Shown here one piece after another: positions 2,135-49,970 of a DNA stretch of 64,000 nt; within the stretch, counting starts at the first letter, position 1, and every line of letters starts with the position of its first letter. The notes beneath the pieces were generated by a model that did not search any database, was not told where the DNA came from, and saw only the letters and a list, made by a program, of their open reading frames with translations. Source of the DNA: Nonomuraea rubra (lineage in GTDB: Bacteria; Actinomycetota; Actinomycetes; Streptosporangiales; Streptosporangiaceae). The DNA lies in the NCBI RefSeq assembly GCF_014207985.1, contig NZ_JACHMI010000001.1, forward strand, positions 8,973,001 through 9,037,000, read 5' to 3'. The position numbers and the translations under genes were made by a program.

Positions 2135-2148
2135 GGGACCAAAGTCCT
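2135..2148. promoter_or_regulatory. DevR-like box upstream of the 2099 minus-strand gene
   Basis: GGGACCAAAGTCCT fits the DosR/DevR palindrome (GGGAC, 4 bp, GTCCC) with one mismatch. It lies 36 bp before the start of the minus-strand hypothetical gene. Confidence 0.6.
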
Positions 2149-2202
2149 CGCAGCGGCGGGCGAGAGACCTCGCTCCGGCCCCAGCGACACCTTCCGCCGC
2201 AG

Positions 2203-2239
2203 GAGCCCAACGTCCTTGCCCGGCGGGGACGAAAGTCCC
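2203..2239. promoter_or_regulatory. Paired DevR-like boxes upstream of the hibernation factor
   Basis: GGGACGAAAGTCCC (2226-2239) is a perfect 5+4+5 palindrome matching the mycobacterial DosR box core. A weaker copy, GAGCCCAACGTCCT, sits 23 bp upstream at 2203-2216. The proximal box ends 68 bp before the ATG at 2308. Confidence 0.7.
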
Positions 2240-2307
2240 TGGCCGCGGCGTCCGGACTGGCCAGAGGGTGGGGTCATCAGCAACGGATGCGAAGAAGGTG
2301 CTCACGC

Positions 2308-3060
2308 ATGAGGCACAGGCCCATCGCTCTTGATCCCGCCGACGTGCAGGTCAAGATCCGTGGCGGGTTCCGGCCCGCCGATGTCCGGCACGCCCAGGAG
2401 ACCGTGGCTCATCTGGCGCGGCTCGCTCACGAGCCGGTGCTCGGCGCGAGGGTCAAGCTCGGCACCGCGCCCGAGTTCGGCGCCGGGCGGCGGACAGCGG
2501 AGGCCGTACTGGATGTCCAGGGGAGACTCGTCAGGGCCCGGGCCAGCGCGGCCTCCGCTCGTGGAGCCGTCCAGCTGCTCGGTGACCGGCTGCGGACGCG
2601 GCTGCTGGAGAGCACCAGGGACTGGGAGAACCGGCGGGGGCGCCACCACGGACAGCGTCCAGCCGGGCAGGCCGGCGGGGAGCGGCAGGTCGTACGGCTT
2701 CCCGCGGCGGCCCGCGCCGTGCCTGACGAGGCTGTGGTGGACATGGAGGAGCTCGACTACGACTTCCTGCTGTTCACCGAGGACGCGACGGGCCAGGACA
2801 GCGTCGTCTACCGCACCGGCGACGGCTACCGCCTCGCTCAGCTCGTGCCGCAGTCGGATCTGCCGGCTCCGACGTGCGCGGCGATCTCGGTCAGCCCGTT
2901 GCCCGCTCCCCGGCTCACCGTGGCGGAGGCCATCGAACGGCTGGAGTTGACCGGGTTCGCGTTCGTCTTCTTCGCCGACACGGACACCGGAGCCGGCCGC
3001 CTCGTCTACCACCGCGCTGACGGGGACTACGGCCTCGTCAGCACCGTTCACGACGGCTGA
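2308..3060 (+). CDS. HPF/S30AE-family ribosome hibernation factor with two tail domains
   Basis: A 250-residue protein. Residues about 10-95 (DVQVKIRGGF...) form an S30AE/HPF-type ribosome-binding domain. Two similar C-terminal dimerisation-type domains follow: one around EELDYDFLLFTEDATGQD and one around ERLELTGFAFVFFADTDTG, each ending in a YRTGDGY/YHRADGDY strand typical of long HPF tails. Family knowledge: HPF proteins inactivate ribosomes as 100S dimers, and mycobacterial Rv0079 is a DosR-controlled relative. The start at 2308 has GAAGGTG seven bases upstream; the longer frame before it is non-protein-like. Controlled, by inference, by the paired DevR-like boxes upstream. Confidence 0.85.
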   Translation: MRHRPIALDPADVQVKIRGGFRPADVRHAQETVAHLARLAHEPVLGARVKLGTAPEFGAGRRTAEAVLDVQGRLVRARASAASARGAVQLLGDRLRTRLLESTRDWENRRGRHHGQRPAGQAGGERQVVRLPAAARAVPDEAVVDMEELDYDFLLFTEDATGQDSVVYRTGDGYRLAQLVPQSDLPAPTCAAISVSPLPAPRLTVAEAIERLELTGFAFVFFADTDTGAGRLVYHRADGDYGLVSTVHDG

Positions 3061-4637: not shown

Positions 4638-4674
4638 GTGACTCGGGACTCCGCGAGTACGGGACCTTCGGCCC
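4638..4674. promoter_or_regulatory. DevR-like box(es) upstream of adhP
   Basis: GGGACCTTCGGCCC (4661-4674) is a strong box. A weaker partner, GTGACTCGGGACTC, lies 23 bp upstream. The proximal box ends 64 bp before the adhP start. Confidence 0.65.
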
Positions 4675-4738
4675 TGATGTGGGCGCCGCTGTGACCGGAA
4701 GGCTGAAGGCGAGACCCGATGGAGAAAGAAGAACAGTC

Positions 4739-5749
4739 ATGCGTGCTGCCGTCGTCACCGCCTTCGACAAGCCCGTCGAACTTCAGGAGGTGCCCGTACC
4801 CGAGCCGGGGCCGTCCCAGGTCCTCGTCCGCATCGAGGCGAGCGGGCTGTGCCACACCGACATCCACGCCGCCCACGGCGACTGGCCGGTCAAACCCGCG
4901 CTGCCGTTCACCCCGGGCCACGAGGGCGTCGGCGTCATCGAGGAGGTCGGCTCCGCCGTGACCGGCCGGGCGGTCGGCGAGCGGGTGGCCATCCCCTGGC
5001 TCGGCTACGCCTGCGGCACCTGCGAATACTGCGTCAGCGGCCGTGAGACCCTGTGCGAGTCCCAGCTGAACAGCGGGTACGCGATCAACGGCGGCCACGC
5101 CGAGTACGCGGTCGCGCACGCCGCCTACGTGGTCCCGGTGCCCGATGGCGTCGCCTCGGCTGAGGCCGCGCCGCTGACCTGCGCGGGGGTGACCACGTAC
5201 AAGGCGGTCAAGGTCTCCGGTCTGCGGCCTTCCGAACGTGCCGCGATCTTCGGCATCGGCGGGCTGGGCCACCTGGCGCAGCAGTACGCGCAGATCTTCG
5301 GCGGCGAGACCATCGCGGTCGACGTCACCGACGAGAAGCTGCGCCTGGCCCGGGAGCTGGGCGCCTCTCACACGGTCAACGCCGCCGTCAGCGACCCGGT
5401 CGCCGAGATCAAAGCCCTGGGCGGGGCGGACGTGGCCATCGTGCTGGCCGCGAGTCCGCGCGTGCTGGAGCAGGCGCACGCCTCACTGCGCCGCGGCGGC
5501 CGCCTGGTGCTGGTCTCTCTGCCCAAGGACAACACCATGAGCCTGCCCGTCTTCCAGACCGTCCTCGGTGGCATCAGCGTCATCGGCTCCATCGTCGGCA
5601 CCCGCGCCGACCTGGCCGAGGTCTTCGAACTGCACGCCGCGGGACGCACCAAGGTCGTCTACGAGACGCGCAAGCTGGAGGAGATCAACCAGTCCTTCGA
5701 CGACGTCCTGGCCGGCACCGTGCCCGCCCGCCTGGTCTTCCAGCTCTGA
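4739..5749 (+). CDS. adhP: Zinc-dependent alcohol dehydrogenase
   Basis: A 336-residue medium-chain dehydrogenase that interconverts alcohols and aldehydes with NAD(H). Catalytic zinc ligands are visible as Cys38 in GLCHTD and His61-Glu62 in PGHEGVG. The structural zinc site is the Cys92/95/98/106 cluster in YACGTCEYCVSGRETLC. The nucleotide-binding GIGGLGHLA loop is near residue 172. The start MRAAVVTAFDKP follows GGAGAAAGAAG, so the upstream extension of the frame is rejected. In an oxygen-limited cell it would re-oxidise NADH by reducing acetaldehyde to ethanol. A perfect hairpin terminator follows. Confidence 0.92.
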   Translation: MRAAVVTAFDKPVELQEVPVPEPGPSQVLVRIEASGLCHTDIHAAHGDWPVKPALPFTPGHEGVGVIEEVGSAVTGRAVGERVAIPWLGYACGTCEYCVSGRETLCESQLNSGYAINGGHAEYAVAHAAYVVPVPDGVASAEAAPLTCAGVTTYKAVKVSGLRPSERAAIFGIGGLGHLAQQYAQIFGGETIAVDVTDEKLRLARELGASHTVNAAVSDPVAEIKALGGADVAIVLAASPRVLEQAHASLRRGGRLVLVSLPKDNTMSLPVFQTVLGGISVIGSIVGTRADLAEVFELHAAGRTKVVYETRKLEEINQSFDDVLAGTVPARLVFQL

Positions 5750-7188: not shown

Positions 7189-7264
7189 GGCGGGCCTCCC
7201 TTTCCTGTTCTGTCGTGCGTCCTTGTCTCACCTCCATCACACCGGTTGTGGCCGCCGGCGCTCA

Positions 7265-7300
7265 GTGCCGTACGGCCCTCGGCATGAGGACCTTGGTCCT
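7265..7300. promoter_or_regulatory. Paired DevR-like boxes upstream of DoxX copy 1
   Basis: GTGCCGTACGGCCC (7265-7278) and AGGACCTTGGTCCT (7287-7300, inside the perfect 16-bp palindrome GAGGACCTTGGTCCTC) are spaced exactly 22 bp. The first box is 76 bp before the DoxX start, the same geometry as at the second DoxX gene. Confidence 0.75.
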
Positions 7301-7338
7301 CCCCCACGCCAAGTCGTGGCGCTGCCCGCCGCTGCGCG

Positions 7339-7373
7339 GGGACCTTCGGCACCGAGGCGGGGCCGTCAGGCCC
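7339..7373. promoter_or_regulatory. Paired DevR-like boxes upstream of the nitroreductase
   Basis: GGGACCTTCGGCAC (7339-7352) and GGGCCGTCAGGCCC (7360-7373), 21 bp apart, end 49 bp before the ATG at 7423. Confidence 0.65.
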
Positions 7374-7422
7374 TCACCGCAGCCGGACCAGGTGCGGCAG
7401 CGTCGGTGGCAGGAGGTGTGTG

Positions 7423-8376
7423 ATGTCCGTTTCACTCGCTACCGAGCTCGGCGTCCGACGGCTGCTGGTGGCGGCCGGGCAGGCGCCGTCGGTGTTCAAC
7501 ACCCAGCCATGGCGCTTCAACGTGGTCCGCCGGGAGTTCGTCGAGATGTTCGCCGATCCCGACCGGCGGCTGCGGATCAGCGATCCGCGCGGCCGCAATC
7601 AGTACGTGAGCTGCGGCGCGGCGCTGTTCAACCTGCGCCTGGCAGTGCGTACGTCCGGCCGGCGGCCAGTGGTGTGGCTGTTGCCCGCGCCCGAGGCGGA
7701 GCCCGAGCTGCTGGCGGCCGTGCGCATGGGCGGGCCGCTGCCCGTCCCCGAGGAGTATCGCGAGTTGTACGACCTCATCCCCGTGCGCCGCACCAGCCGC
7801 CGGCCCTTCGCCGACCGTGCTCTGCCACGCGCGGTGCGGGCCGAACTCCGGCAGGCCGCCATGCGGGAGGGAGCGGGGCTGGTGTTCCTCGACCGGCATG
7901 CGACGGCCGACACGCTGGACTGTGCCGCCATCGCCGAGGAGGAGCTGGCCCGCGACCACGACTACCGCGCCGAGCTGGCCGCGTGGGCGATGCCGGGCGC
8001 GCGGTACGACGGCCTTCCGGGCTACGTCCACGGGCCACGCCCGCTGCGCGATCCAGCGCCTGTCCGGGACTTCGGGCGGCAGGAAGGCGAGGCACGATTC
8101 GAGGAACACCCGCAGCTCGCCGTGCTGACCACCATGGGCGATCGCCCCGCGGACTGGCTGCGGGCCGGTCAGGCGCTGCAGCGGGTGCTGCTGGTGGCCG
8201 CCGGGCACGGCGTGTCGGCATCGTTCCTGAACCAGCCGCTGGACCTGCGCGACATGCGCAAGCGCCGCGACCCCCACCACCGCCGAGGTCACCCGCAGAT
8301 GATCATCCGGCTCGGTTACGGGCTTCCCGTGGCGCGCAGCCCACGGCGCCCCGCCGCCGAGCTGGAAACCGCTTGA
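7423..8376 (+). CDS. Acg-family putative NAD(P)H nitroreductase
   Basis: A 317-residue protein with the APSVFNTQPWRF motif near its N-terminus, RRTSRRPF mid-protein, and a C-terminal [11 protein letters not shown]...RRGHPQMIIRLGYG segment. These are typical of the Acg (Rv2032) nitroreductase family, DosR-controlled flavoprotein relatives that bind FMN but often lack measurable nitroreductase activity. The ATG at 7423 follows GGAGGT at ideal distance; a GTG one codon upstream is less likely. A second, truncated copy of its C-terminus is at 19752. Confidence 0.88.
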   Translation: MSVSLATELGVRRLLVAAGQAPSVFNTQPWRFNVVRREFVEMFADPDRRLRISDPRGRNQYVSCGAALFNLRLAVRTSGRRPVVWLLPAPEAEPELLAAVRMGGPLPVPEEYRELYDLIPVRRTSRRPFADRALPRAVRAELRQAAMREGAGLVFLDRHATADTLDCAAIAEEELARDHDYRAELAAWAMPGARYDGLPGYVHGPRPLRDPAPVRDFGRQEGEARFEEHPQLAVLTTMGDRPADWLRAGQALQRVLLVAAGHGVSASFLNQPLDLRDMRKRRDPHHRRGHPQMIIRLGYGLPVARSPRRPAAELETA

Positions 8377-13557: not shown

Positions 13558-13595
13558 CCTGAACCTCCAATGGCCTTCAGGAGGTCGGTCCTAAG

Positions 13596-13609
13596 GGGCC
13601 GAAAGGCCC
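13596..13609. promoter_or_regulatory. DevR-like box upstream of the membrane-protein gene
   Basis: GGGCCGAAAGGCCC is a perfect 5+4+5 palindrome, identical to the one before the ABC exporter (33268). It lies 39 bp before the minus-strand start. Confidence 0.6.
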
Positions 13610-13631
13610 TTCCACGGATTCTTCCGCGATG

Positions 13632-13667
13632 TGTGCTTCCGGCCCTCCGGAAAAGGACCAACGTCCC
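13632..13667. promoter_or_regulatory. Paired DevR-like boxes upstream of the P-type ATPase remnant
   Basis: AGGACCAACGTCCC (13654-13667), with a weaker TGTGCTTCCGGCCC copy 22 bp upstream (13632). They lie 91 bp before the ATG at 13759. Confidence 0.55.
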
Positions 13668-13758
13668 TGTTGGCTGCACCTGAGTTCGCGAACAGTAGGG
13701 CGCGGACACATTCGAGCGATCATCCGCCTGCCGGAAGACCGCGGCGAGCACGGAGGAC

Positions 13759-15205: not shown

Positions 15206-15620
15206 CTACAGCAGGTGCCTGGGCAAGGCAGGCAGTGGAAGGGACACGTCGGCGAGAAGCCACGCGGGGATCCCAGGTCCCTGGTCGCTGACCTCGCAGC
15301 ACAGGACGCCGTTCCCGCACCACAGGCTCAGCCTGCCTGCTCCCCCGCCGTGCACCACGGCGTTGACCACGCCTTCGTCGACCGCCAGGAGGAAGTCGTC
15401 GAGGCGAGCCCCGTCCAGTCCCCGTTCCCGCGCCGCGTGCGCTTCAGGCAGCTCTCCTCGAAGTGCGTCCTGCCCGTCCAGTACCGCACCGGTCACCACC
15501 GGGCCGGCTCGATGCCGACCTTTTCGGCGACGGCGCAGGCGGTGTCCGCGTGGCCGCCGGTCACCATGATCACCTGGATGCCGCCGGCTCGGGCGCGGCA
15601 GTGCCGGAGGTCTACGAAGA
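15206..15620 (-). pseudogene. Chimeric remnant: P-type ATPase P-domain piece joined to an RsbW-like kinase piece
   Basis: Read leftward, it opens with IQVIMVTGGHADTACAVAEKVGI, the P-domain region of a P-type ATPase (the usual TGDH is TGGH here). After a frameshift it reads VVTGAVLDGQDALRGEL, still ATPase, and then runs straight into HAARERGLDGARLDDFLLA and EGVVNAVVHGGGAGRLSLWC. The latter part is nearly identical, at DNA level too, to the intact RsbW-like gene at 37719. It lacks that gene's start and its C-terminal ATP-lid motif. Two unrelated gene fragments have been joined near 15465. Confidence 0.8.
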
Positions 15621-15623
15621 GCG

Positions 15624-15659
15624 AGGACGTTCGTCCCACGCACGGATGCCCTAAGGCCG
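15624..15659. promoter_or_regulatory. Paired DevR-like boxes upstream of pflB
   Basis: AGGACGTTCGTCCC (15624-15637) and ATGCCCTAAGGCCG (15646-15659), 22 bp apart, end 64 bp before the pflB ATG. The first is identical to the box at 46878. Confidence 0.65.
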
Positions 15660-15723
15660 ATGTGATCGAGCAACCGGTGCACGAGGGTGGAAGGAGAGCT
15701 TCGACGAAGACGAAGGGGGAACG

Positions 15724-17958: not shown

Positions 17959-17968
17959 GCGTACCGAG

Positions 17969-18694
17969 ATGAACGGTTCGGTCAGCTCCTGGGACCTGTC
18001 GGTCGGCGTGGACGGCCCCGGCACCCGCTTCGTCGTCTTCACCGCCGGCTGCCCGTTGCGCTGCCTGTACTGCCAGAACCCCGAGACCTGGCGGATGCGC
18101 GACGGCCGCCAGGTCACCGCCGAGGAAGTCATGGCGGAAATCGGGAAATACCGGCGCTTCATCTCCGTCGCCGGCGGCGGGGTGACCATCAGCGGCGGTG
18201 AACCGCTACTGCAGCCTCGCTTCACCGCCGAGCTGCTGCGCCGCTGCCATGGCAGCGGTCTGCACACCGCCCTGGACACCTCGGGCCTGCTCGGCATCCG
18301 CGCCACCGACGCCATGCTCGCCGACACCGACCTGGTCCTGCTCGACATCAAGTCCTACGACCCGGCCACCTACCGCCGCCTCACCGGCGGACCGGTCGAA
18401 CCCACCCTGCGCTTCGCCCGCCGCCTCGCCGACCTGGGCCGGCCCACCTGGGTGCGGTTCGTGCTGGTACCCGGACTCACCGACGCCCCCGACAACGTGG
18501 ATGCCCTGGCCCGCTTCGTCGCCGGCCTGGGCAATGTCGAACGGGTCGACGTCCTGCCCTTCCACCGCATGGCCACCGCCAAGTACGAGCGCCTCGGCCT
18601 GCGCTTCCCCCTTGGTGACGTCGCACCGCCCGGCCAGGAGCTGCTCGACCGCGTGCACGGCCAGTTCCGAGGCCACGGCGTGACCTCGATCTGA
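17969..18694 (+). CDS. pflA: Pyruvate formate-lyase activating enzyme (radical SAM)
   Basis: A 241-residue radical-SAM enzyme that installs the glycyl radical on PFL. The iron-sulfur cluster motif CxxxCxxC is Cys28, Cys32 and Cys35 (CPLRCLYCQN). The SAM-binding GGE motif is in GGGVTISGGEPLLQP. Downstream LLDIKSYDPATYRRLTGG and VRFVLVPGLTD are typical of PflA. It is co-transcribed with pflB (10-bp gap). There is no extra ferredoxin-like insert, so it is the short, PFL-specific type. Confidence 0.94.
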   Translation: MNGSVSSWDLSVGVDGPGTRFVVFTAGCPLRCLYCQNPETWRMRDGRQVTAEEVMAEIGKYRRFISVAGGGVTISGGEPLLQPRFTAELLRRCHGSGLHTALDTSGLLGIRATDAMLADTDLVLLDIKSYDPATYRRLTGGPVEPTLRFARRLADLGRPTWVRFVLVPGLTDAPDNVDALARFVAGLGNVERVDVLPFHRMATAKYERLGLRFPLGDVAPPGQELLDRVHGQFRGHGVTSI

Positions 18695-19907: not shown

Positions 19908-19981
19908 CGGCTCAGCCCACCACGGGCTGCGACACCAGGGCGGGCGTGCCCAGCGTCGCCCCTGCGTCGGCACCTCCAGCA

Positions 19982-20017
19982 GGGACTTTCGGCCTTGATG
20001 CCGGGGCCGTCCGGCAC
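19982..20017. promoter_or_regulatory. Paired DevR-like boxes upstream of the acyl-CoA synthetase
   Basis: GGGACTTTCGGCCT (19982-19995) and GGGCCGTCCGGCAC (20004-20017), 22 bp apart, end 68 bp before the ATG at 20086. Confidence 0.65.
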
Positions 20018-20085
20018 TGCCTGCCACACCCGCCTCCCGACAGCCTCAGAGCTGAGAGCACGCCCTTCAGAACGGGAGACGGACC

Positions 20086-28288: not shown

Positions 28289-28303
28289 GTCTGGTCGTTC
28301 GCA

Positions 28304-28939: not shown

Positions 28940-28946
28940 CTGCCGC

Positions 28947-29783: not shown

Positions 29784-29844
29784 CTCGCACCCCTTCGCTC
29801 CGATTTGTCACCTCCAACGTCGTCCCGGAGGGAGCTCAGCGCCC

Positions 29845-29880
29845 GGGGAGGAAGTCCCGATCAGGAGCGCCGTTGGTCCT
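29845..29880. promoter_or_regulatory. Paired DevR-like boxes upstream of the 29783 USP
   Basis: GGGGAGGAAGTCCC (29845) and GCGCCGTTGGTCCT (29867), 22 bp apart. The second is identical to the one at 40421. Confidence 0.65.
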
Positions 29881-33215: not shown

Positions 33216-33267
33216 GTCGGTCCTTCCGTCCGGTTTCCAGACTGATCCGCTTCAGCCAGGCCGGGCA

Positions 33268-33281
33268 GGGCCGAAAGGCCC
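33268..33281. promoter_or_regulatory. DevR-like box upstream of the ABC exporter
   Basis: GGGCCGAAAGGCCC, a perfect palindrome. It sits immediately after the stop of the upstream deazaflavin-type gene; a GGGCC half-site follows 21 bp further. Confidence 0.6.
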
Positions 33282-36092: not shown

Positions 36093-36102
36093 GACGGCGG
36101 CC

Positions 36103-36759
36103 CTACATCAGCGGCGGGACGACGATGAGGTCGTCGTCCTCGGCGGCCAGGTCGCCCACGACGTCCACCACGCCTTCGACGTTGCGGACGGCTTCGACGA
36201 GGGCGATCGCCTGCGACCGCCAGCGCACCTGCCCGCCGATCTTCACCATGCCGGCGTCGATCTCGACCGTGAACGGGCCGGGCTCCGGCAGCAGGGCACG
36301 GATGTCGGCCTCCAGCTCGCCGGAGGGGCGGGTGAAGACGCGAAGCACGTCCCGCTGGTGCAGGGTGCCGATGACCCTCCCGGTGACGACGTCGATCACG
36401 GGCAGCTGCTTGATGCGCTTGGTGTGCATCAGCCGGGCGGCGTCGCGCACGCTGGTGCCCGGGGTGACGGTGATCGCGGGGGAGGTCATCAGCTGGGATG
36501 CCGTGACCGCGGCGGCCTTCTGGTGGTCGCGCCGCTGCTTGCGGGTCTCGAACAGTGACACGCTGTGCCGTACGGTGTCGATCTCCTTGAGCAGGAGATC
36601 GTCCTCGGAGACCACGCCCATCGGGCGGCGGTCTGCGTCGATGACGGTGACCGCGCCGACCGCGAACCGCTTCATCGCGGCCACGATCTCGGCGAACGAG
36701 GCGTCCGCCTGCACGGCGATGGCCACGCGTCCCATGACGTCCTTGACTTCGATCGACAT
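36103..36759 (-). CDS. CBS-pair and BON domain protein 4
   Basis: A 218-residue protein with two CBS repeats (VKDVMGRVAIAVQADASFAE... and LMTSPAITVTPGTSVRDAAR...) and a BON domain (FTVEIDAGMVKIGGQVRWRS). It is the fourth such protein in the window and is closest in layout to protein 1 at 22764. The start is at 36759, after GAGAGGTGG. The gene probably heads an operon with hypF (10-bp gap), linking an energy sensor with hydrogenase maturation. Paired DevR-like boxes lie 54 bp upstream. Confidence 0.87.
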   Translation of the reverse strand: MSIEVKDVMGRVAIAVQADASFAEIVAAMKRFAVGAVTVIDADRRPMGVVSEDDLLLKEIDTVRHSVSLFETRKQRRDHQKAAAVTASQLMTSPAITVTPGTSVRDAARLMHTKRIKQLPVIDVVTGRVIGTLHQRDVLRVFTRPSGELEADIRALLPEPGPFTVEIDAGMVKIGGQVRWRSQAIALVEAVRNVEGVVDVVGDLAAEDDDLIVVPPLM

Positions 36760-36812
36760 GATGTCCACCTCTCTTTCACCTCCAGGCTCGCGTACGGCGG
36801 CTTGGGCGGTCA

Positions 36813-36848
36813 GCGGCGAACGTCCCCGATGACCATGACGAAGGTCCC
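36813..36848. promoter_or_regulatory. Paired DevR-like boxes upstream of the CBS/BON-hypF unit
   Basis: GCGGCGAACGTCCC (36813) and ATGACGAAGGTCCC (36835), 22 bp apart, in the gap after the USP gene. Confidence 0.6.
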
Positions 36849-36854: not shown

Positions 36855-37697
36855 TCAGGCGCGGACCACGGCGACCGGGCAGCGGGCGTGGTGCAGGACG
36901 CCGCGGCTGACCGAGCCGAGCAGCGCCGCTCCCAGGGTTCCTCGCCCGTGCGAGCCCACCACGAGCAGATCCGCCTGTTCGGTCGCCGCGGTGAGGGCGT
37001 CCGCCGGTTGCGCACAGGGCACGTCCTCGACGACCGTCACCTGCGGGTGGTCCTGGCCTGCGGCCTTGACCCGGTCGTGGACGGCCTGGTGCTGTGTGGC
37101 GCGGACTTCGTCCAGGTCGTAGGGGGCCTCGGGAGCGTAGGCGTGCACCGGCAGCTGCCAGGCGTGCACGGCCCTGAGCGTCGCGCCGCGCAGCTGTGCC
37201 TGTTCGAAGGCGTAGGCCAGGGCGGGCTCGCACTCCGGCGAGTCGTCCAGCCCCACGACGACCTCGCCGTGCACGGGCCGGTGCTGGGCCCGCACCACCA
37301 CGACGGGACAGCGGACGTGCCCGGCCACGTGGGCGCTCACCGAACCCAGCAGCGCGCCGGAGAGCCCGCCGAGACCGCGGCAGCCGACCACCAGCTCTGT
37401 CGCGTCCCCGGCCAGCTCGCGCAGCACTTCGGCTGGCGTGCCCTCCATCTCACGCGTGGTGACCTCAGCGGACGGCTGCCGCTCGCGGACGAGAGCCTCC
37501 GCCTCCCGCAGCACCCGCCGCCCCTCCTTGTGGAGGGAGTCCGGCAGCACCGCGTCGGGGCGCTTGCCGACCAGGTACCACGACGTATCGGTCACGTGCA
37601 CGATGTGCAGCGGCACGTGCCTGCGGGCGGCGTCGCCGGCCGCCCACTCCACAGCGGCCCGTGCGGCCACGGATCCGTCAACTCCTACGATGATCAT
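36855..37697 (-). CDS. Tandem universal stress protein
   Basis: A 280-residue two-domain USP. It begins MIIVGVDGSVAARAAVEWAA, with ATP loops VGCRGLGGLSGALLGSVSA (domain 1) and VGSHGRGTLGAALLGSVSRG (domain 2). It is the closest relative of the USP at 27266. The start at 37697 has GGAGGA five bases upstream; an in-frame ATG six codons earlier is less likely. Paired DevR-like boxes lie 54 bp upstream, inside the 3' end of the RsbW-like gene. Confidence 0.93.
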   Translation of the reverse strand: MIIVGVDGSVAARAAVEWAAGDAARRHVPLHIVHVTDTSWYLVGKRPDAVLPDSLHKEGRRVLREAEALVRERQPSAEVTTREMEGTPAEVLRELAGDATELVVGCRGLGGLSGALLGSVSAHVAGHVRCPVVVVRAQHRPVHGEVVVGLDDSPECEPALAYAFEQAQLRGATLRAVHAWQLPVHAYAPEAPYDLDEVRATQHQAVHDRVKAAGQDHPQVTVVEDVPCAQPADALTAATEQADLLVVGSHGRGTLGAALLGSVSRGVLHHARCPVAVVRA

Positions 37698-37718
37698 GAT
37701 TTCCTCCTTCGTCACCTC

Positions 37719-38246
37719 TCATCGGACCTCATACGTGTCCGCGTGGCGCAGGGCCGGAGGTCGCCGGTGCAAGGGACGAAGGGCCTCTGCCTGCGGCGGT
37801 CCCGGCGACGCACCGGACAGGGCCTGGGGACATCGCCGATCCGCTTCCGCCGGCGGGGGCAGCCGCATGCTCAGCCGCACGGCGGTGCCCTCGGGTCCGG
37901 TGGTGAAGGCGACCTCGTCGGCCAGGCGGCGCATCAACCAGATCCCCCGCCCGCCGGGCGCGGTGGGCGGCGGAAGGGAGGCGCCGGCGAGAATCCGCGC
38001 GGGAATACCGGGTCCTCGGTCGCTGATCTCGCAGCGAAGAACGCCGTCCCCGCACCACAGGCTCAGCCTGCCTGCTCCGCCGCCGTGCGCCACGGCGTTG
38101 ACCACGCCCTCGTCGACCGCCAGGAGGAAGTCGTCGAGGCGAGCCCCGTCCAGTCCCCGTTCCCGCGCCGCGTGCAGGAGCACGCGGCGCGTGTGCTTCA
38201 GGCAGATCTCGTCGAAGCGCAGGGTGATCACCGGAAGGGTTCTCAT
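37719..38246 (-). CDS. RsbW-like anti-sigma factor / serine kinase (HATPase)
   Basis: A 175-residue GHKL ATPase. The N-box is DEGVVNAVAHGGG, the G1 box is ISDRGPGIP and the G2 box is GGRGIWLMRRLADEV. Such small histidine-kinase-like ATPases usually phosphorylate anti-anti-sigma factors or bind sigma factors. It begins 8 bp after the gap stop, so it is probably co-transcribed with gap. The C-terminal ~40 residues after SMRLPPPAEAD are low-complexity and overlap the USP boxes. A partial duplicate lies at 15206-15465. No anti-anti-sigma partner is nearby. Confidence 0.85.
   Translation of the reverse strand: MRTLPVITLRFDEICLKHTRRVLLHAARERGLDGARLDDFLLAVDEGVVNAVAHGGGAGRLSLWCGDGVLRCEISDRGPGIPARILAGASLPPPTAPGGRGIWLMRRLADEVAFTTGPEGTAVRLSMRLPPPAEADRRCPQALSGASPGPPQAEALRPLHRRPPALRHADTYEVR
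37751..37786. promoter_or_regulatory. Paired DevR-like boxes upstream of the 37697 USP
   Basis: GGGCCGGAGGTCGC (37751) and GGGACGAAGGGCCT (37773), 22 bp apart, within the 3' coding end of the RsbW-like gene. Confidence 0.55.
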
Positions 38247-38253
38247 GCGAGCG

Positions 38254-39237
38254 TCAGGCCATCCGCTGGGCCATCTCGACGAGCCGGTTGGCGTAGCCCC
38301 ATTCGTTGTCGTACCAGCCGAAGACCTTGACCAGGTCGCCGCTCGCCTGGGTGAGGGCGGAGTCGAACACGCAGGAGGCGGCGTCGCCGATGATGTCGCG
38401 GGAGACGAGCGGGTCGGTGCTGTAGCGCAGGATGCCGTGCAGGTCGTCCCGGGCGGCACCGGCGAAGACGTCGTTGATCTCCTGGGCGGTGACCGGGCGG
38501 CTGAGCTGGGCGGACAGGTCGGTGATGGAGCCGTCCTCGACGGGCACCCGGATGGCGACGCCGTCCAGGCGGCCCTCCAGCTCAGGCAGGACCTGGCCGA
38601 CCATGCGGGCGGCGCCGGTCGTGGTGGGCACGATGTTGACGGCGGCCGAGCGGGCCCGGCGCGGGTCCTTGTGCGGGGCGTCCAGCAGCATCTGGTCGCC
38701 GGTGTAGGCGTGGATGGTGGTCATGAAGCCGCGCACCAGGCCGAACCGCTCGTGCAGCACCTTCACCATCGGGGCCACGCAGTTGGTGGTGCAGGAGGCG
38801 AGCGAGACGATCTCGTGCCGGACCGGGTCGTAGGCGGCGTCGTTGACTCCGGGCACGATGGTGGCGTCCAGGCCCTTGCCGGGGGCCGACAGCAGCACCT
38901 TGCGGGCGCCGGCCTTCAGGTGGCTCGCCAGGGCGTCCCTGGTGCGGAAGCGGCCGGTGGCGTCGATGACCAGCTCCACGTCGTGAGCCCGCCAGTCGAT
39001 CTGGGCGGGGTCGGCGCAGCCGCTCACGGCGAGCTTCCGGCCGTCGACCTCCAGTAGGCCGGGGGCGGCGGTGACGGGCAGGTCCAGCGGCCCGTACGTG
39101 GAGTCGTGCCTGAACAGGTGAGCCAGCGTGGCCGGGTCGGCGATGTCGTTGACGGCGACGATCTCCAGGTCGGTGCGGAGCGCGCGGCGCAGGACGGCTC
39201 TGCCGATCCTGCCGAATCCGTTGATTCCGAGTCTCAT
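38254..39237 (-). CDS. gap: Glyceraldehyde-3-phosphate dehydrogenase
   Basis: A 327-residue NAD-type GAPDH of glycolysis. The N-terminal dinucleotide motif is INGFGRIGRAVLRRAL, the active-site Cys is in SLASCTTNCVAPM, the catalytic His is in TTIHAYTGDQ, and the C-terminal GWYDNEWGYANRL is intact. The start follows a weak GATGAAGG. It is probably a second, dormancy-specific copy, because it sits away from pgk/tpi and has paired DevR-like boxes 36 bp upstream. It may share a message with the RsbW-like kinase downstream. Confidence 0.94.
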   Translation of the reverse strand: MRLGINGFGRIGRAVLRRALRTDLEIVAVNDIADPATLAHLFRHDSTYGPLDLPVTAAPGLLEVDGRKLAVSGCADPAQIDWRAHDVELVIDATGRFRTRDALASHLKAGARKVLLSAPGKGLDATIVPGVNDAAYDPVRHEIVSLASCTTNCVAPMVKVLHERFGLVRGFMTTIHAYTGDQMLLDAPHKDPRRARSAAVNIVPTTTGAARMVGQVLPELEGRLDGVAIRVPVEDGSITDLSAQLSRPVTAQEINDVFAGAARDDLHGILRYSTDPLVSRDIIGDAASCVFDSALTQASGDLVKVFGWYDNEWGYANRLVEMAQRMA

Positions 39238-39272
39238 GCCTTCATCGTCCGGCGCTCGGGGCTCGCGGGTCA

Positions 39273-39308
39273 GAGACCACGGTCCCGCGTGCGTGGGACC
39301 TTCGGCCC
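39273..39308. promoter_or_regulatory. Paired DevR-like boxes upstream of gap
   Basis: GAGACCACGGTCCC (39273) and GGGACCTTCGGCCC (39295), 22 bp apart. The second is identical to the adhP box. Confidence 0.68.
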
Positions 39309-40685: not shown

Positions 40686-43118
40686 TCAGCCCTTCTTCGC
40701 CCAGTCGCCCAGCGACCACTCACGCACCTCGGGCATGTCTTCGAGGTGTTCGACGACGTACGCCTGGTGCTCGGCGAGTTTCCGCTCGCACCAGGCCATC
40801 AGGTCGCTGGCGCCGCGCGGCAGCCGCCTGGCGTTGTTGATGGCGTCCATGACCAGGTGGTAGCGGGAGGCGCGGTTGCGGACCGTCATGTCGAAGGGCG
40901 TGGTGGTGGTGCCCTCCTCGATGAAGCCGCGCACCCGGAACCGGTCGGCGTCCGGGCGGCCGTGCACGAGCTGGTGGATGGCGCCCGGGTAGCCGTGGAA
41001 GGCGAACACCACATCGACGGTGTCGGTGAACAGCTCGGTGAACAGGGTGCCGCTCATGCCGTGCGGGTGGTCCTTCGGGCGCGGCAGCGTCATCAGGTCG
41101 ACCACGTTGACCACGCGGACCTTGAAGCCGGGCAGCCGTTCCTTGAGGATCTGCGCCGCCGCGACCGTCTCCATCGTCACCACGTCGCCGGCGCAGGCGA
41201 GCACGATGTCGGGGTCGCTGGTGCCGTCGTCGGTGCCGGCCCAGTCCCAGATCCCGGCCCCGCGGGCGCAGTGCTCGATGGCCTGGTCGATGTTCAGCCA
41301 CTGCAGCTGCGGCTGCTTGTCGATGACGATGAGGTTGATGTACGACCGCGACCTCAGGCAGTGGTCGGCCACCGACAGCAGGCAGTTGGCGTCCGGCGGC
41401 AGGTAGACGCGGGCGACGTCGCCGCGCTGGGTCAGCACGACCTGGATCAGGCCGGGCCCTTGGTGGGAGAAGCCGTTGTGGTCGTTGCGCCAGGCGGTCG
41501 AGGTCAGCAGCACGTTGAGGCTGGGCACCTTGGCCCGCCACGGCAGCCGGCTCGCCTCCTGCAGCCACTTGCCGTGCTGCACCGTCTGGGAGGCGCTGAC
41601 CATCGCGAACGCCTCGTAGGTGGCGAACATGCCGTGCCGTCCGGTCAGCGTGTAGCCCTCCAGCCAGCCGTGGCAGTTGTGCTCCGACAGCACCTCCATG
41701 ACCCGCCCGTTCCGGCTGATCGCCACGTCCTCGGCCGTCACGCGTTCGGCGAAGGCGCGGTCGGACACCTCGAACACGGCGCCGAGCCGGTTGCTGTTGG
41801 TCTCGTCCGGGCAGAACAGGCGGAAGGTGTCGGGGTTGTCGCGGTACACGTCGCGCAGTAGCTCGCCGAGCCGGCGGGTCGACTCCGCGCGCAGTTGCGC
41901 CGGACGCGGCACCTCGACGGCGTAACCGCGGAAGTCGGGCAGGGCAAGATCCCGCGTCAGCAGGCCGCCGTTGGCGTGCGGGCTGGCGCTCATCCGCAGC
42001 TCCCCCTCCGGCGCCAGGCCGCGCACCAGCTCGGTCGGCGCACCGGTGGCGTCGAACAACTCCTCCGGCCGGTACGAGCGCAGCCAGCTCTCCAGGATCG
42101 CCAGGTGCTCCGGATTGTCGCGCACCCCGGACAGCGGCACCTGGTGCGAGCGCCACGTACCCTCCATCTGCACGCCGTCCACCTTGTCCGGGCCGGTCCA
42201 CCCCTTGGGCGAGCGCAGCACGATCAGCGGCCACCGCGGCCGGGTCCCGTCCCACCCGCCGGTACGGGCCAGATGCTGGATGGTGCGGATCTTGCTCCAG
42301 GCCTCGGCCAGCGTCGCCGCGAAGCGGTGATGCATGCCCGGCAGGTCCGAGCCCTCCACCTCCAGCACCTCGTAGCCGTGGCCCTCCAGCAGCCGGCGCA
42401 CCTCGTCAGGATCCTTGCGGGACAACACCGTGGGGCCGGCGATCTTCGCGCCGTTGAGGTGCAGGATCGGCAGCACGGCGCCGTCACGCTCGGGGTTGAG
42501 GAACGACAGGCCCTTCCACGACCCTTCCAGCGGCCCCGTCTCGGCCTCGCCGTCGCCCACCACCGCCACCGCCAGCAGGTCGGGGTTGTCCATGACGGCG
42601 CCGAAGGCGTGCACCAGCACGTACCCCAGCTCGCCGCCCTCGTGGATCGAGCCCGGCGTGGTCACCGAGACGTGGCTGGGAATGCCGCCCGGGCTGGAGA
42701 ACTGCCGGAACAGCCGCAACATCCCGGCCTCGTCCTGGCTGACGTTCGGGTAGATCTCGCTGTAGGTGCCCTCCAGGTATCCGGCAGCCACCAGCGCCGG
42801 CCCGCCGTGCCCCGGCCCGGCGAGGTAGATCGCCTGCTGCGCGGTGTGCCGGATGAGCCGGGAGACGTGCGCGTAGATCAACGACAGGCCGGGGCTGGTT
42901 CCCCAGTGGCCCAGCAGCCGCGGCTTGATGTGCCGTGGCGCCAGCGGCTCGCGCAGCAGCGGATTGCCCTGCAGGTAAATCTGCCCGATCGTGAGGTAAT
43001 TGTTGGCCCGCCACCAGGCGTCCAGTTGTTCGACCTCCCCGGCCTTCGGGGAGGCCAGTCTCTCCAGCATGTCTTCATCGACGGCCTTGCGGACCTGCTC
43101 ATCCGAAACTGCGGTCAT
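40686..43118 (-). CDS. xfp: Phosphoketolase (xylulose-5-phosphate/fructose-6-phosphate)
   Basis: An 810-residue thiamine-diphosphate enzyme splitting xylulose-5-P or fructose-6-P with phosphate to acetyl phosphate and a sugar phosphate. Signatures visible: LGHWGTSPGLSLIYAHV, YLAGPGHGGPALVAAGYLEG, the ThDP motif VVGDGEAETGPL...SFLNP, and HNCHGWLEGYTLTGRHG in the middle domain. Length is normal. The start is preceded by GAAGGGA. With PFL and the ADP-forming synthetase it offers ATP from sugar without respiration. Its nearest box pair is ~200 bp upstream, further than usual. Confidence 0.94.
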   Translation of the reverse strand: MTAVSDEQVRKAVDEDMLERLASPKAGEVEQLDAWWRANNYLTIGQIYLQGNPLLREPLAPRHIKPRLLGHWGTSPGLSLIYAHVSRLIRHTAQQAIYLAGPGHGGPALVAAGYLEGTYSEIYPNVSQDEAGMLRLFRQFSSPGGIPSHVSVTTPGSIHEGGELGYVLVHAFGAVMDNPDLLAVAVVGDGEAETGPLEGSWKGLSFLNPERDGAVLPILHLNGAKIAGPTVLSRKDPDEVRRLLEGHGYEVLEVEGSDLPGMHHRFAATLAEAWSKIRTIQHLARTGGWDGTRPRWPLIVLRSPKGWTGPDKVDGVQMEGTWRSHQVPLSGVRDNPEHLAILESWLRSYRPEELFDATGAPTELVRGLAPEGELRMSASPHANGGLLTRDLALPDFRGYAVEVPRPAQLRAESTRRLGELLRDVYRDNPDTFRLFCPDETNSNRLGAVFEVSDRAFAERVTAEDVAISRNGRVMEVLSEHNCHGWLEGYTLTGRHGMFATYEAFAMVSASQTVQHGKWLQEASRLPWRAKVPSLNVLLTSTAWRNDHNGFSHQGPGLIQVVLTQRGDVARVYLPPDANCLLSVADHCLRSRSYINLIVIDKQPQLQWLNIDQAIEHCARGAGIWDWAGTDDGTSDPDIVLACAGDVVTMETVAAAQILKERLPGFKVRVVNVVDLMTLPRPKDHPHGMSGTLFTELFTDTVDVVFAFHGYPGAIHQLVHGRPDADRFRVRGFIEEGTTTTPFDMTVRNRASRYHLVMDAINNARRLPRGASDLMAWCERKLAEHQAYVVEHLEDMPEVREWSLGDWAKKG

Positions 43119-43314
43119 GAGGACGTTCCCTTCTCAGTGTGGGTTGCTGTAGTGCCCAAGGTGCGGCTGTTCAGTCCAGTCCCGCGGGCGGTGGGCTGAC
43201 GGCACGGAGGATCGGTGGCGGCCGCACGCGAGGGGCCGGGCCCGCCGACGCCCGCAAGGATCATGGCCTCCTCTGTCACCACACCATCCGACCTCAGCCG
43301 AGGCCCCGGGAACA

Positions 43315-43352
43315 GGGCCAGAAGTCCCCACGACCGCAGGTCCAAGGGCCAC
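43315..43352. promoter_or_regulatory. DevR-like boxes between xfp and the HTH/PNPOx gene
   Basis: GGGCCAGAAGTCCC (43315-43328) and AGGTCCAAGGGCCA (43339-43352), 24 bp apart, 197 bp upstream of xfp. Confidence 0.55.
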
Positions 43353-45409: not shown

Positions 45410-46588
45410 CTACGTGATGCCGGCGAGCTCGTCGTGCAGGTACGCGATGAGCTCGTCGAGATCGGGGATGCTGTCAGGGCCGCGTACGTTGCTGACCAGG
45501 GTGTGGATGCGGCGCTGCCGGCGAAGGTAGCGGCGGTAGAGCCCGAGCGCGGCCAGCAGCCGGAACAGCGGGCCGAACAGATCGGCGGCGGAGGCGATCG
45601 CAGCCTGTTTCTTGCGCCCGGCGAGCAGGGCGGTGATCCGCGCCATGCGGTGCGCGGGATCGCCGGTGGTGGGGAGGGCGGCGATCAGCACGCCGAAGCG
45701 GTTGCCGAGTTCGCTGGAGGTGGTGCTGCGCCGGGCCGACACCGGCACCGAGACCGACAGGGCGCCGACGTGCTCGCCCCGCCGTTCCAGGAGCCTGCTC
45801 AGCGCGCCCGTGATGACCGTCAGGAGCGCGTCGTTGACGGTGCAGCCGTGGCGGTGGGCCACGGCCCGCAGAGGCGCCAGGCCGGTTCGCACGACGGCGA
45901 AGGTGCGGCGCTGGCCGGTCGGCCGCAGCAGCGAGCACCGCGCGATGGGCTCCGGGCGCAGCCCGCCGGTGGCCGCGAGGGCTGTCTTGGCGTCCCGCCA
46001 GAAGGTTCGTACGCGGCCGATCGATCGCAGGCGTTCGGTGAAGGCGTCGGCCGCCAGGCGCGGCAGGGACGGCGGAGGCTGCGGGAACCCGGTGGGCGCC
46101 GGCCGTTGCGCGGGGTCGGCCAGCGCCGCGAGCAGGGCGAGCCCGCCGATCCCGTCGGCCAGCACGTGGTCGAGCACGACGATCAGCGCCACCGCGCCGT
46201 CGCTCAGCCCGGTGACGAAGAGCGCCGTCCACCGCGATGGCGGCAGCGGGCCGGTCAGCACGGCGGCGGCCACGTCCAGCAGCGCCGGCTCGTCCCCCGG
46301 GGCCGGGCACTTGACCTCGCGCACGTGCAGCCGGAGGTCGAACCGCGGATCGTCCACCCACACCGGGCGGCCACCGCCGAACGGCACCCGTACCAGCCGC
46401 CGCCTCAGCCTCGGCACGGACCTGATCCACTCGGCCAGCAGCGCCGATATCCGCGTCACCTCGAATTCCGGCCCCGGCTCTAGCAGCAGGACGGCGCCGG
46501 CCCGCTGTGACAGCGAGCCGGCCGCTCCCATGGCCAGCATGGCGACGTCCGAGGGGCTGGCACGATCGATGCGCCCCGTCACGTTCAT
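45410..46588 (-). CDS. WS/DGAT-family acyltransferase with altered active site
   Basis: A 392-residue protein of the wax ester synthase/diacylglycerol acyltransferase family, shorter than usual (about 450-490). The catalytic HHxxxDG motif is LDHVLADG: the first His is Asp, while the second, catalytic His and the Asp-Gly remain. Other family blocks are present (FRPVVDDPRFDL-type VWVDDPRFDLRLHV, TVNDALLTVITGAL, NVRGPDS). It overlaps the DUF1918 gene by ATGA. By context it serves storage-lipid formation, with activity less certain than for the copy at 48415. Confidence 0.8.
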   Translation of the reverse strand: MNVTGRIDRASPSDVAMLAMGAAGSLSQRAGAVLLLEPGPEFEVTRISALLAEWIRSVPRLRRRLVRVPFGGGRPVWVDDPRFDLRLHVREVKCPAPGDEPALLDVAAAVLTGPLPPSRWTALFVTGLSDGAVALIVVLDHVLADGIGGLALLAALADPAQRPAPTGFPQPPPSLPRLAADAFTERLRSIGRVRTFWRDAKTALAATGGLRPEPIARCSLLRPTGQRRTFAVVRTGLAPLRAVAHRHGCTVNDALLTVITGALSRLLERRGEHVGALSVSVPVSARRSTTSSELGNRFGVLIAALPTTGDPAHRMARITALLAGRKKQAAIASAADLFGPLFRLLAALGLYRRYLRRQRRIHTLVSNVRGPDSIPDLDELIAYLHDELAGIT

Positions 46589-46776
46589 CGGTGGCCGGGG
46601 ACGACGCGCGCGTCCGGCCCGGGGTAGACGAGGGACTCGCGCCCGTTGTCCAGCCAGCGCACCTGGTAGGGCGGCGAGCCGTCGGCATGCTCCACGCCCA
46701 CGACGAAGCCCTCCCGGCGGGCGTTGGCGCCGTACGTCCCCTCCACGATCAGCCGGTCACCCACGGTCGCTTTCAT
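46585..46776 (-). CDS. DUF1918 protein
   Basis: A 63-residue protein, MKATVGDRLIVEGTYGANAR, PPYQVRWLDNGRESLVYPGP: a small SH3-like barrel typical of DUF1918, common in actinobacterial stress loci and of unknown function. The start follows GAGGAG. It is the first gene of an operon with the WS/DGAT gene (ATGA overlap). Confidence 0.88.
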   Translation of the reverse strand: MKATVGDRLIVEGTYGANARREGFVVGVEHADGSPPYQVRWLDNGRESLVYPGPDARVVPGHR

Positions 46777-46855
46777 GGTGAGCTCCTCTTCTCGCTGTGA
46801 GCAGGATGGTTGTCATCCCGGCTCCAGCCTCCGGCCTCCGGCCCGCGCGTGGCAG

Positions 46856-46891
46856 GGCCGGAGGTCGTGGAAGGGGCAGGACGTTCGTCCC
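46856..46891. promoter_or_regulatory. Paired DevR-like boxes upstream of the DUF1918-WS/DGAT operon
   Basis: GGGCCGGAGGTCGT (46856) and AGGACGTTCGTCCC (46878), 22 bp apart; they touch the end of the fadD gene. Confidence 0.65.
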
Positions 46892-48399: not shown

Positions 48400-48414
48400 G
48401 GCTCTCTCCTTCGA

Positions 48415-49890
48415 TCAGGCTGGGTGCGGCTCCGCGACCCTGGGCCGCGCGGCCTGCGGGGCACGCCGCTTCGCGGCACGCGGCCGGGGAGCCGCCGGGG
48501 CGGGCCGGAAGGCGAGGCGCAGCCTCTCGACCTCCCGCTCGATGCCGCGGGCGAGCCCCTCGACCTCGGGCGCACTGTCGTAGTCGCCGGTGACGCCGAA
48601 GGTGACCTGGTCGCAGTAGGTGAAGATGGACACTCCGGTGCGCAGCCGGTTGGCGATGGGGACGTACGGGAGGATCTCCAGGGTTCGCCGGCCGAGCAGG
48701 TAGAGGGGCCGGCGTGGCCCGGGGACGTTCGTGGTGACGGTGACGATCTGACGCTGCGGCAGGTGCGCGGCCAGGCGCATGACGCCGGACACGGGAGGGA
48801 ACGGCTCGTGTCCCGCCAACCGGGTGATGGCCTCCCCGGCCTGCGCCTCACCGCTCGCCTTCAGCTCGGCCAGGTGTTCGTGGACGGCGCGCAGCCGGGC
48901 CACCGGGTCGTCCAGATGGACCGGCAGGTAGGGCAGCAGGAGCGAGATGCGGTTCTCGCACACGCCTTCCTCGCCGGGCGCGCGGACGGAGACGGGGACG
49001 GGCGAGCGTACCGCGTGAGGGAGAGGTTCCTCGCCGCGTTCGCGCAGCAGTTTCCGGTACGCCCCGCTGATCGCGGACAGGACCACGTCGTTGAAGGTCA
49101 CTCCGGCCCGGTGCGCGACGTCCTTGACGTCGTTCAGCGGCGCGCGGGCGACGGCGTAGCGGCGGTGCTCGCCGATCGTTCCGGTGAGGGTGGAGGCGGT
49201 CGCCGGCCACAGCGCGCCCGCCAGCGGCACGAGCCCGCGGGCCGCTTCGGCGACGCGCTGGGCGAGGACGCGCGGCGAGGCCAGTGCCCGGCCGATCAGG
49301 TGCGCCTGCTCGACGGGGTTGAGCAGGAGGTCGCGCAGCGCGTCGGTGGTGAGCCGCAGGGCCGTCGGCTCGCCGTCGGGGTTCCACTCGTCCGCGGGCG
49401 GCCCCGGGGTGCCCTCGGGCGACTCGTCGAAGATCACGTAGTAGAGGTGGGTGCCGGACACCCCGTCCACCATGCAGTGGTGCACCTTCGACACCAGCGC
49501 CCAGCGGCCCTCGGCCAGCCCTTCGATCACCCAGTACTCCCAGAGCGGGTGGGCTCGGTCGAGCCGCTGGGACATGATGTCGCCGATCAGCTCGCTCAGC
49601 TGCACGTCACCGCCCGGCGGGGCCAGAGCGACGCGCCGCACGTGGTAGCCGAGGTCGAAGGCGGGGTCATCGACCCAGGCGGGCGGCCCCAGATCGAGCG
49701 GCACCTGCCGCGCCTTCTGCCGGTAGCGCCGCACCAGCGGCAGCCGGGCGCGGATGGTGTCGAGGAGCTCCTGCCGGCCCGGCGGCGGGCCCTCCAGGAC
49801 GGCGACCGACGAGATCGCCATCGACACCTCGGGCTGCTCATCCTCCAGGGTCAGGAACGCCGCGTCGAGCGGACTCATGTGGTCGGCCAT
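48415..49890 (-). CDS. Wax ester synthase/diacylglycerol acyltransferase (Tgs1-like)
   Basis: A 491-residue WS/DGAT. The catalytic motif is complete: SKVHHCMVDGVSG (HHxxxDG). Other family blocks: MSPLDAAFLTLED at the start, PAWVDDPAFDLGYHVRRVAL, GVTFNDVVLSAISGAYR and VTTNVPGPRRPLYLLG. It esterifies fatty acyl-CoA to diacylglycerol or alcohols, storing carbon as lipid bodies. The mycobacterial counterpart tgs1 (Rv3130c) is a DosR gene and the main hypoxic triacylglycerol synthase. An Ala/Pro/Arg-rich tail of ~45 residues follows the core. The start has GAAGGGG upstream and a DevR-like box at 67 bp. Confidence 0.92.
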   Translation of the reverse strand: MADHMSPLDAAFLTLEDEQPEVSMAISSVAVLEGPPPGRQELLDTIRARLPLVRRYRQKARQVPLDLGPPAWVDDPAFDLGYHVRRVALAPPGGDVQLSELIGDIMSQRLDRAHPLWEYWVIEGLAEGRWALVSKVHHCMVDGVSGTHLYYVIFDESPEGTPGPPADEWNPDGEPTALRLTTDALRDLLLNPVEQAHLIGRALASPRVLAQRVAEAARGLVPLAGALWPATASTLTGTIGEHRRYAVARAPLNDVKDVAHRAGVTFNDVVLSAISGAYRKLLRERGEEPLPHAVRSPVPVSVRAPGEEGVCENRISLLLPYLPVHLDDPVARLRAVHEHLAELKASGEAQAGEAITRLAGHEPFPPVSGVMRLAAHLPQRQIVTVTTNVPGPRRPLYLLGRRTLEILPYVPIANRLRTGVSIFTYCDQVTFGVTGDYDSAPEVEGLARGIEREVERLRLAFRPAPAAPRPRAAKRRAPQAARPRVAEPHPA

Positions 49891-49956
49891 GCCCCTTCGC
49901 CACCTTTCGCACGTGCCGGTTGGCGTCAGCGTCGTCCGAGGCCGGTAAGGCTCGTA

Positions 49957-49970
49957 GAGCCGAAGGTCCC
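49957..49970. promoter_or_regulatory. DevR-like box upstream of the Tgs1-like gene
   Basis: GAGCCGAAGGTCCC, 67 bp before the minus-strand start. It is the right-most box I found. Confidence 0.55.

Follow-up and report, generated by a model that had tools for sequence, protein, structure and literature searches.

A 64,000-bp stretch of the Nonomuraea rubra genome (bases 8,973,001-9,037,000 of the 12.78-Mb main contig, C1; genome total 12.88 Mb), hereafter the window, carries a repeated palindromic box with the consensus GGGACNWWNGTCCC. We consider these palindromes very probably to be operators of DevR, a low-oxygen dormancy regulator of the NarL response-regulator family whose gene, like that of a DevS-like kinase, lies within the island of boxes, and to work by the DevS/DevR scheme of low-oxygen activation. 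The sequence itself shows the boxes, their excess, pairing and preferred promoter position, the presence of DevR and DevS, in both of which key residues are conserved, and the co-occurrence of boxes with devR. The island extends from about -19.5 to +50 kb in window coordinates (~70 kb), with promoter boxes from -18.5 kb to 49,957. A preliminary description of the window had let the boxes end at 50 kb, which holds for the downstream edge, but upstream they run past the window to -18.5 kb.

Allowing at most two mismatches, the consensus matched 29 times in the window, always within 2135-49970, against 10.15 ± 3.26 matches in 100 dinucleotide shuffles, none of which reached 29. Since the consensus had been derived from this same window, an independent matrix was built from the 26 OsdR sites of Streptomyces coelicolor listed in Table 1 of PMC5069765 and compared with control regions of the N. 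rubra genome, 27 for enrichment and 26 for phasing and composition. Region L017, which starts ~21 kb from the second devR copy (devR2), served as a control for enrichment and was excluded from the later 26-region tests; L010, L011 and L013-L016 had been selected at or beside known box sites and were therefore excluded as controls. At a score of at least 10 bits the matrix found 24 matches in positions 1-50000 and one in 50001-64000, the control mean being 3.33 per 50 kb (27 regions), which is a roughly 7-fold excess; at 8 bits or more the corresponding figures were 37, one and 9.5 per 50 kb. Neither shuffled sequence nor unrelated regions are thus equally dense, and the palindrome is repeated as first claimed.

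Genes and their starts were called by a codon-usage script and named by Pfam and NCBIfam. Among the 37 matches of at least 8 bits, 25 were intergenic and 12 intragenic, three of the latter (37751, 37773 and 46727) lying directly upstream of the next gene, and the sum in promoter position agrees with the ~28 sites of the preliminary description. Its statement that a box precedes nearly every transcription unit went too far, as 23 of the 33 units called from 2.1 to 50 kb possess a box of at least 8 bits within 330 bp. Across the whole island, 23 of 30 matches of at least 10 bits fall into the non-coding 20%, a class that here takes in gene starts. The whole genome holds 82 places with at most one mismatch to the consensus (reversed pattern, 62). 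The 70-kb island makes up 0.5% of the genome and contains 14 of them, and one is in the surrounding 134 kb; three of the genome's nine exact boxes are in the island. Two further spots were noted: L037 (C1:9550001-9570000), with six matches of at least 10 bits in 20 kb, is the highest of the 27 controls, and a satellite group at L014:8229-16026 (C1 ~5.33 Mb) has five non-coding boxes of at least 9 bits, one reaching 20.2 bits and two lying 22 bp apart (12296/12318).

The boxes show helical phasing. When the best partner of each non-coding cluster of at least 9.5 bits was sought at offsets of 16-60 bp on either side, 12 of the 26 island clusters had it at 21-23 bp (6.7% expected, p=3e-8), compared with one of five coding clusters in the island and three of 38 control clusters (intragenic 2/26, non-coding 1/12; 26 regions). 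The same spacing was found in 46 of 153 clusters (p=2e-18) from 79 loci around other DevR genes (L042-L120; 80 among the matches listed, before exclusion of L041, located in G010) and in 19 of 53 clusters of N. parvosata, G010 (p=6e-10), while intragenic clusters of the 80 loci gave 7/95 (p=0.45). These replica loci weigh more than the island itself, because the offset window was chosen after reading the finding. With narrower offsets of 16-27 bp, 23 of the 26 island sites peaked at 21-23 bp (25% expected), many with weak partners, and the 80 loci displayed a smaller excess at 44-45 bp, compatible with a third site. The boxes had been described as mostly paired at 21-24 bp; the excess at 21-23 bp is real, but about half rather than most are so paired in the 16-60 bp test. 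All eight pairs listed there exist, with uneven partner strengths: both members of 19982/20004 and of 28904/28926 score strongly, 27225/27247 is of moderate strength (6.8 and 11.9 bits), 15646, the partner of 15624, is weak (-0.9 bits), and the best-scoring partner of 46878 is 46855 rather than 46856.

Box centres lie a median of 75 bp from the nearest start codon (25-149 bp; 25 of 26 clusters). Pooled promoters first revealed a peak of TANNNT 22 bp past the box. At 21-23 bp past the proximal 16-mer, the relaxed hexamer NANNNT was present in 12 of the 28 promoters of the island, in 23 of 54 from N. parvosata and in 70 of 134 from the 79 loci, with expectations per three offsets of 2.0, 4.2 and 9.5, respectively. 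Strict TANNNT peaked at 21-23 bp in the relatives (18/134 for the 79 loci and 6/54 for N. parvosata). The -10-like hexamer tends to lie 22-23 bp past the proximal box. If it is the -10 element, the 16-mer would span about -50 to -35 with its centre near -42.5, and the proximal box would occupy a class II position overlapping -35. This position agrees with that of proximal DevR sites of Mycobacterium tuberculosis, which are described in PMC3029386 as overlapping -35. A predicted promoter grammar of strong box, partner at 21-23 bp and -10-like hexamer 22-23 bp past the proximal box can be read from sequence, and it recurs in the pooled DevR loci of several actinomycete genera, some of them harmless and so open to testing.

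The candidate regulator and its kinase are encoded 11-16 kb upstream of the window, within the island. The best solved relative of the regulator is M. tuberculosis DevR (3C3W, E=1.6e-79), to which it aligns gap-free from 1-211 on 1-211 with D54, T82, K104, K179, K182 and N183 identical (numbering counted by hand), the last four being residues that we take to be key as well. The closest named DevR is that of [Actinomadura] parvosata (96%, among the 80 loci listed, with Nonomuraea species high in the list). The kinase has DevS GAF-domain structures (2Y8H and others) as its best solved relatives (E=1e-52) and conserves the HPPM stretch, whose histidine is presumably the heme ligand. By sequence, the island encodes a DevR-type regulator with conserved phosphorylation and DNA-contact residues and a GAF-domain sensor kinase of DevS type with HisKA_3; the functional roles of D54 and T82 are taken from passages of the literature.

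With signal, phosphorylation, cooperativity and activation all inferred from M. tuberculosis and S. coelicolor, a fall in oxygen (or a rise in nitric oxide or carbon monoxide) would lead DevS to phosphorylate DevR; phosphorylated DevR would bind the stronger box and bring another dimer onto the weaker one, two helical turns distant, and from the promoter-proximal box, touching the -35 region with its centre near -42.5, would place RNA polymerase as a class II activator. The genes switched on would be those for cytochrome bd oxidase, universal stress proteins, Acg-type oxidoreductases and ribosome hibernation, and also for pyruvate formate-lyase (PFL), acyl-CoA synthetase, phosphoketolase and storage-lipid synthesis.

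Both regulatory genes have second copies elsewhere. A second DevR is encoded at C1:6478534 (6.48 Mb), 97% identical in protein and 89% in DNA, with two boxes within ~100 bp upstream and no island around it, and a second DevS at C1:4426804 (4.43 Mb), 81-83% identical, with boxes on both sides, two of them 23 bp apart. As 56 of the 66 nucleotide differences between devR1 and devR2 are at third codon positions, both copies appear to be under purifying selection. It is therefore conceivable, if rather unlikely, that the boxes are mainly served by the unlinked second DevR or by both, leaving the island devR redundant; the near identity of the second protein, its own upstream boxes and its conservation speak for this, while the two DevR copies are inseparable by sequence and the island copy, too, has a weak 22-bp pair upstream.

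Across the genus, box excess tracks devR. At a threshold of E<=1e-75, DevR (in every case at least 88% identical) was found in 41 of 54 genomes searched, namely this one and 53 further genomes, and was missing from 13. Exact boxes averaged 5.8 per genome in the 41 with DevR (reversed pattern 2.2) and 1.1 in the 13 without (reversed 2.3), with nominal Mann-Whitney p=3.5e-6, or p=9e-6 without one genome of 63% completeness. PFL was present in 21 of the 54 genomes and the GNAT-acyl-CoA synthetase in 29, all of them with DevR (hypergeometric 5e-4 and 5e-6, respectively). The upstream regions of 19 of 22 PFL matches were usable (L161 lies near a contig end, and L166 and L167 form one split match), as were those of 28 of 34 synthetase matches (30 fetched; L184 and L194 left out). 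A box of at least 8 bits within 400 bp upstream occurred at 13 of 19 PFL and 19 of 28 synthetase loci, compared with 14 of 152 and 37 of 247 windows of the same length downstream, respectively, and a pair at 21-23 bp in 15 of 28 synthetase promoters but only two of 19 PFL promoters. The idea of a box before every PFL or synthetase orthologue was accordingly rejected, and L161 itself had no box of at least 6 bits in its 348 bp.

These data also bear on the possibility that the genome encodes a different NarL-family response regulator which recognises the palindromes. The NarL family has related half-sites, and 50 further matches to DevR at E<=1e-30 were found among the 150 of 266 candidates scored; however, the 13 DevR-less genomes have no box excess despite 121-247 first-look candidates each, the matrix was built from OsdR sites, and the best of the 50 further matches is only 41% identical, so that such a binder is very improbable. 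Chance GC-rich palindromes or transcript hairpins that are no operators can be dismissed, even though the intragenic third of the matches (12/37) resembles background, because this idea was rejected by shuffles, control regions and phasing and is contradicted by the preferred -10 distance and the devR co-occurrence as well.

Several observations weigh against DevR operators as the explanation. Ten of the 33 called units have no box of at least 8 bits, and the best match upstream of narG reaches only 3.0 bits. Strict TANNNT occurs at the expected place in none of the 28 island promoters, though in relatives it indicates where the -10 element lies. Because the genomes compared for co-occurrence are related and not independent, the p-values of that test are optimistic. 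Orthologues are also sometimes unboxed; in genome G018 neither PFL nor synthetase has a box. The near-identical second DevR, finally, makes the acting copy ambiguous. Even so, the identification as a DevR/DosR-like operator, already put forward in the preliminary description, is supported in that a matrix from another genus finds the boxes, DevR and a DevS-like kinase are encoded in the island, and the box excess follows devR.

The features of the island are collected in Table 1. Among core DevR target genes, the universal stress and Acg genes are boxed, and the nar genes are present without a strong box.

Table 1. Boxes and genes of the island (window coordinates; negative values lie upstream of the window)
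Feature	Position	Strand	Boxes and remarks
Nitroreductase	-19499 to -18516		Box -18459
cydA-cydB	-18482 to -16067		Exact box -16007
devS-like kinase	-15592 to -13922 (L005:4408-6078)	-	Two GAF stretches, HisKA_3, HATPase
devR	-12244 to -11603 (L005:7756-8397)	+	Weak boxes 22 bp apart at L005:7685/7707
narGHJI nitrate reductase operon	Start -5186; end in window, 1..1431	+	Delta and gamma subunits identified by Pfam, narG/narH only from size and position
Boxes 2135, 2203, 2226	2134..2240		Before hibernation-factor gene; 2203/2226 are 23 bp apart
Ribosome hibernation factor type, S30AE C-terminal domain	2308..3060	+	PF16321 (scanned as 2098-3060)
Box 4661 and zinc alcohol dehydrogenase	4660..5749	+	Gene 4739-5749
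Pairs 7265/7287 and 7339/7360	7264..7374		Between divergent genes
Acg (Rv3131) family FMN oxidoreductase	7420..8376	+	NF047509 above cut-off
Boxes 13596, 13654	13595..13668		Upstream of 13120-13557 (no Pfam family)
Box 15624, weak partners 15601 and 15646	15600..15660		Upstream of PFL
PFL and activating enzyme	15724..18694	+	TIGR01255, TIGR02493 above cut-off
Strong pair 19982/20004	19981..20018		14.3 and 14.2 bits, 22 bp apart
GNAT domain fused to ADP-forming-type acyl-CoA synthetase	20086..22677	+	By domain make-up; subfamily models all below cut-off
hypC, partial hypD, hypE	25015..27260	-	Pair 27225/27247 upstream; genes 25015-27165
Two universal stress proteins and DoxX-like gene	27266..29880	-	Boxes 28163, 28904/28926, 29867
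ABC transporter genes	30751..33281	-	Box 33268, 18.0 bits
CBS-BON protein and hypF	33870..36848	-	Pair 36813/36835 upstream; hypF 33870-36092
Universal stress protein, HATPase protein, GAPDH	36855..39308	-	Pairs 37751/37773 and 39273/39295
Phosphoketolase	40686..43328	-	Box 43315, 203 bp before start
WS/DGAT-like gene and DUF1918 gene	45410..46891	-	Boxes 46727, 46878 (partner 46855)
Wax ester/triacylglycerol synthase family gene	48415..49970	-	Last box 49957

Parts of the island appear to be decaying. The hypC, hypE and hypF genes are near-complete by model coverage and the box pair upstream of hypC is retained, whereas hypD is partial, its match at 26319-26912 covering positions 3-206 of the 351 in the profile. 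A search of this genome for the large subunit of a [NiFe]-hydrogenase found none, while that family is matched in 37 of the 54 genomes, in some of them weakly. A second, shorter hydrogenase type occurs in 10 genomes, in nine within ~25 kb of the synthetase or devR and in the tenth on another contig. The hyp genes may be either a relic or a set whose HypE/HypF serve another use. P-type ATPase pieces at 13916-14518 and 18790-19731 and an acyl-CoA ligase without its N-terminal part at 46893-47915 look like further gene remnants. In composition, the island has a GC content at third codon positions of 0.919, compared with 0.950 ± 0.014 in the 26 controls, and a non-coding share of 16%, compared with 10%. 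Beyond the island edge, 50514-60628 holds a weak AbiEi-like match (below cut-off) at the first gene past the edge to match any family, an AAA protein, an rve-type integrase at 55 kb and a weak STAND-like NTPase match, content that is possibly mobile or defence-related.

In M. tuberculosis the genes of the DevR regulon are spread over several loci and do not form one island. The clustered arrangement recurs in N. parvosata, whose contig C4 appears to hold a much longer, ~200-kb DevR-box island at 100001-320000 (L201-L211), with 61 matches of at least 10 bits, 52 of them non-coding, compared with four in an 80-kb control from the same contig. Along this stretch lie two devR copies (105 and 285 kb), PFL (114 kb; no box of at least 8 bits within a distance of 400 bp), the synthetase (190 kb) and a hydrogenase (271 kb). 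Clustering around devR is by no means universal, for only one of five other 80-kb devR neighbourhoods from four genomes was dense, that of G018 (L126-L129) with 18 matches of at least 10 bits, the others having 7, 4, 6 and 3 against ~5 expected; N. parvosata is a sixth neighbourhood, picked for its exact boxes and marker genes on one contig and not a random sample. In the sister species G012, PFL (3.52 Mb) and synthetase (4.56 Mb) are both boxed and devR is at 8.63 Mb, all far apart. We offer only tentatively the idea that in some Nonomuraea the DevR regulon is condensed into a regulator-centred compartment (~70 kb here; ~200 kb with ~60 boxes of at least 10 bits and two devR in N. parvosata), kept by selection for co-regulated, perhaps co-folded, cooperative binding, the sister species having its boxed orthologues megabases apart. 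As the genus offers natural devR absence together with clustered and scattered versions of the regulon, the question of why co-regulated genes cluster beyond operons becomes testable.

Large DevR-type islands have a precedent. In S. coelicolor, passages of PMC5069765 describe OsdR/OsdK and the box, with eight sites around osdR at a cut-off of 8.0 and a prediction of possibly 27 OsdR elements in SCO0167-0181 and SCO0198-0219 at the lower cut-off of 6.0, and cite induction of that island by low oxygen and nitric oxide. The preliminary description's view of the N. rubra island as exceptional, and with it any uniqueness, was accordingly rejected. The two islands share an orthologous regulator pair, the box type and a dense arrangement around the regulator, as well as universal stress, nitroreductase, PNPOx-family, alcohol dehydrogenase and nitrate reductase genes. 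Unlike what those passages report, acyl-CoA synthetase, phosphoketolase, cytochrome bd, wax/triacylglycerol synthase and hyp genes are boxed here too, devR and devS are each duplicated, and phasing and -10 distance were measured; the words formate, phosphoketolase, cytochrome and hydrogenase are absent from the main text of PMC5069765. A DevR-linked PFL was dropped as a novelty, because parts of PMC6302529 report S. lividans genes adjoining osdR (SLIV_36805-37130) to be co-expressed with it, the osdR-correlated genes including, as here, a putative PFL, an activating-protein fragment, and CBS, universal stress and alcohol dehydrogenase genes, with GAPDH located elsewhere. The S. lividans activating protein is given there as a putative pseudogene fragment, whereas PFL and its activating enzyme are full length here by model coverage. 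PMC5069765 speaks of an 'anaerobic paradox' in filamentous actinomycetes, a question to which a full-length PFL system behind such boxes is relevant.

The mycobacterial systems show comparable traits. The M. tuberculosis DevR/DosR-DevS/DosT system, with a regulon of ~48 genes according to PMC4973870, has an orthologous regulator and sensor and paired sites, reported in PMC3029386 to be bound cooperatively. M. smegmatis likewise has two devR copies, in the clusters MSMEG_3932-3955 and 5241-5246, which PMC2799521 describes as hypoxia-induced, one adjoined by hydrogenase genes (MSMEG_3927-3931); N. rubra differs in its partial hypD and in that the search for a hydrogenase large subunit found none. 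Our literature search, with subscription papers mostly outside it, found no paper on DevR in Nonomuraea, and neither phasing statistics nor 200-kb islands are described in the consulted parts of PMC5069765 and PMC6302529. The N. rubra island is a further large example of an arrangement known from Streptomyces, PFL included, to which the ~200-kb N. parvosata island, the phasing and promoter statistics, the duplicated devR and devS and the relic hydrogenase-maturation genes are apparently new additions.

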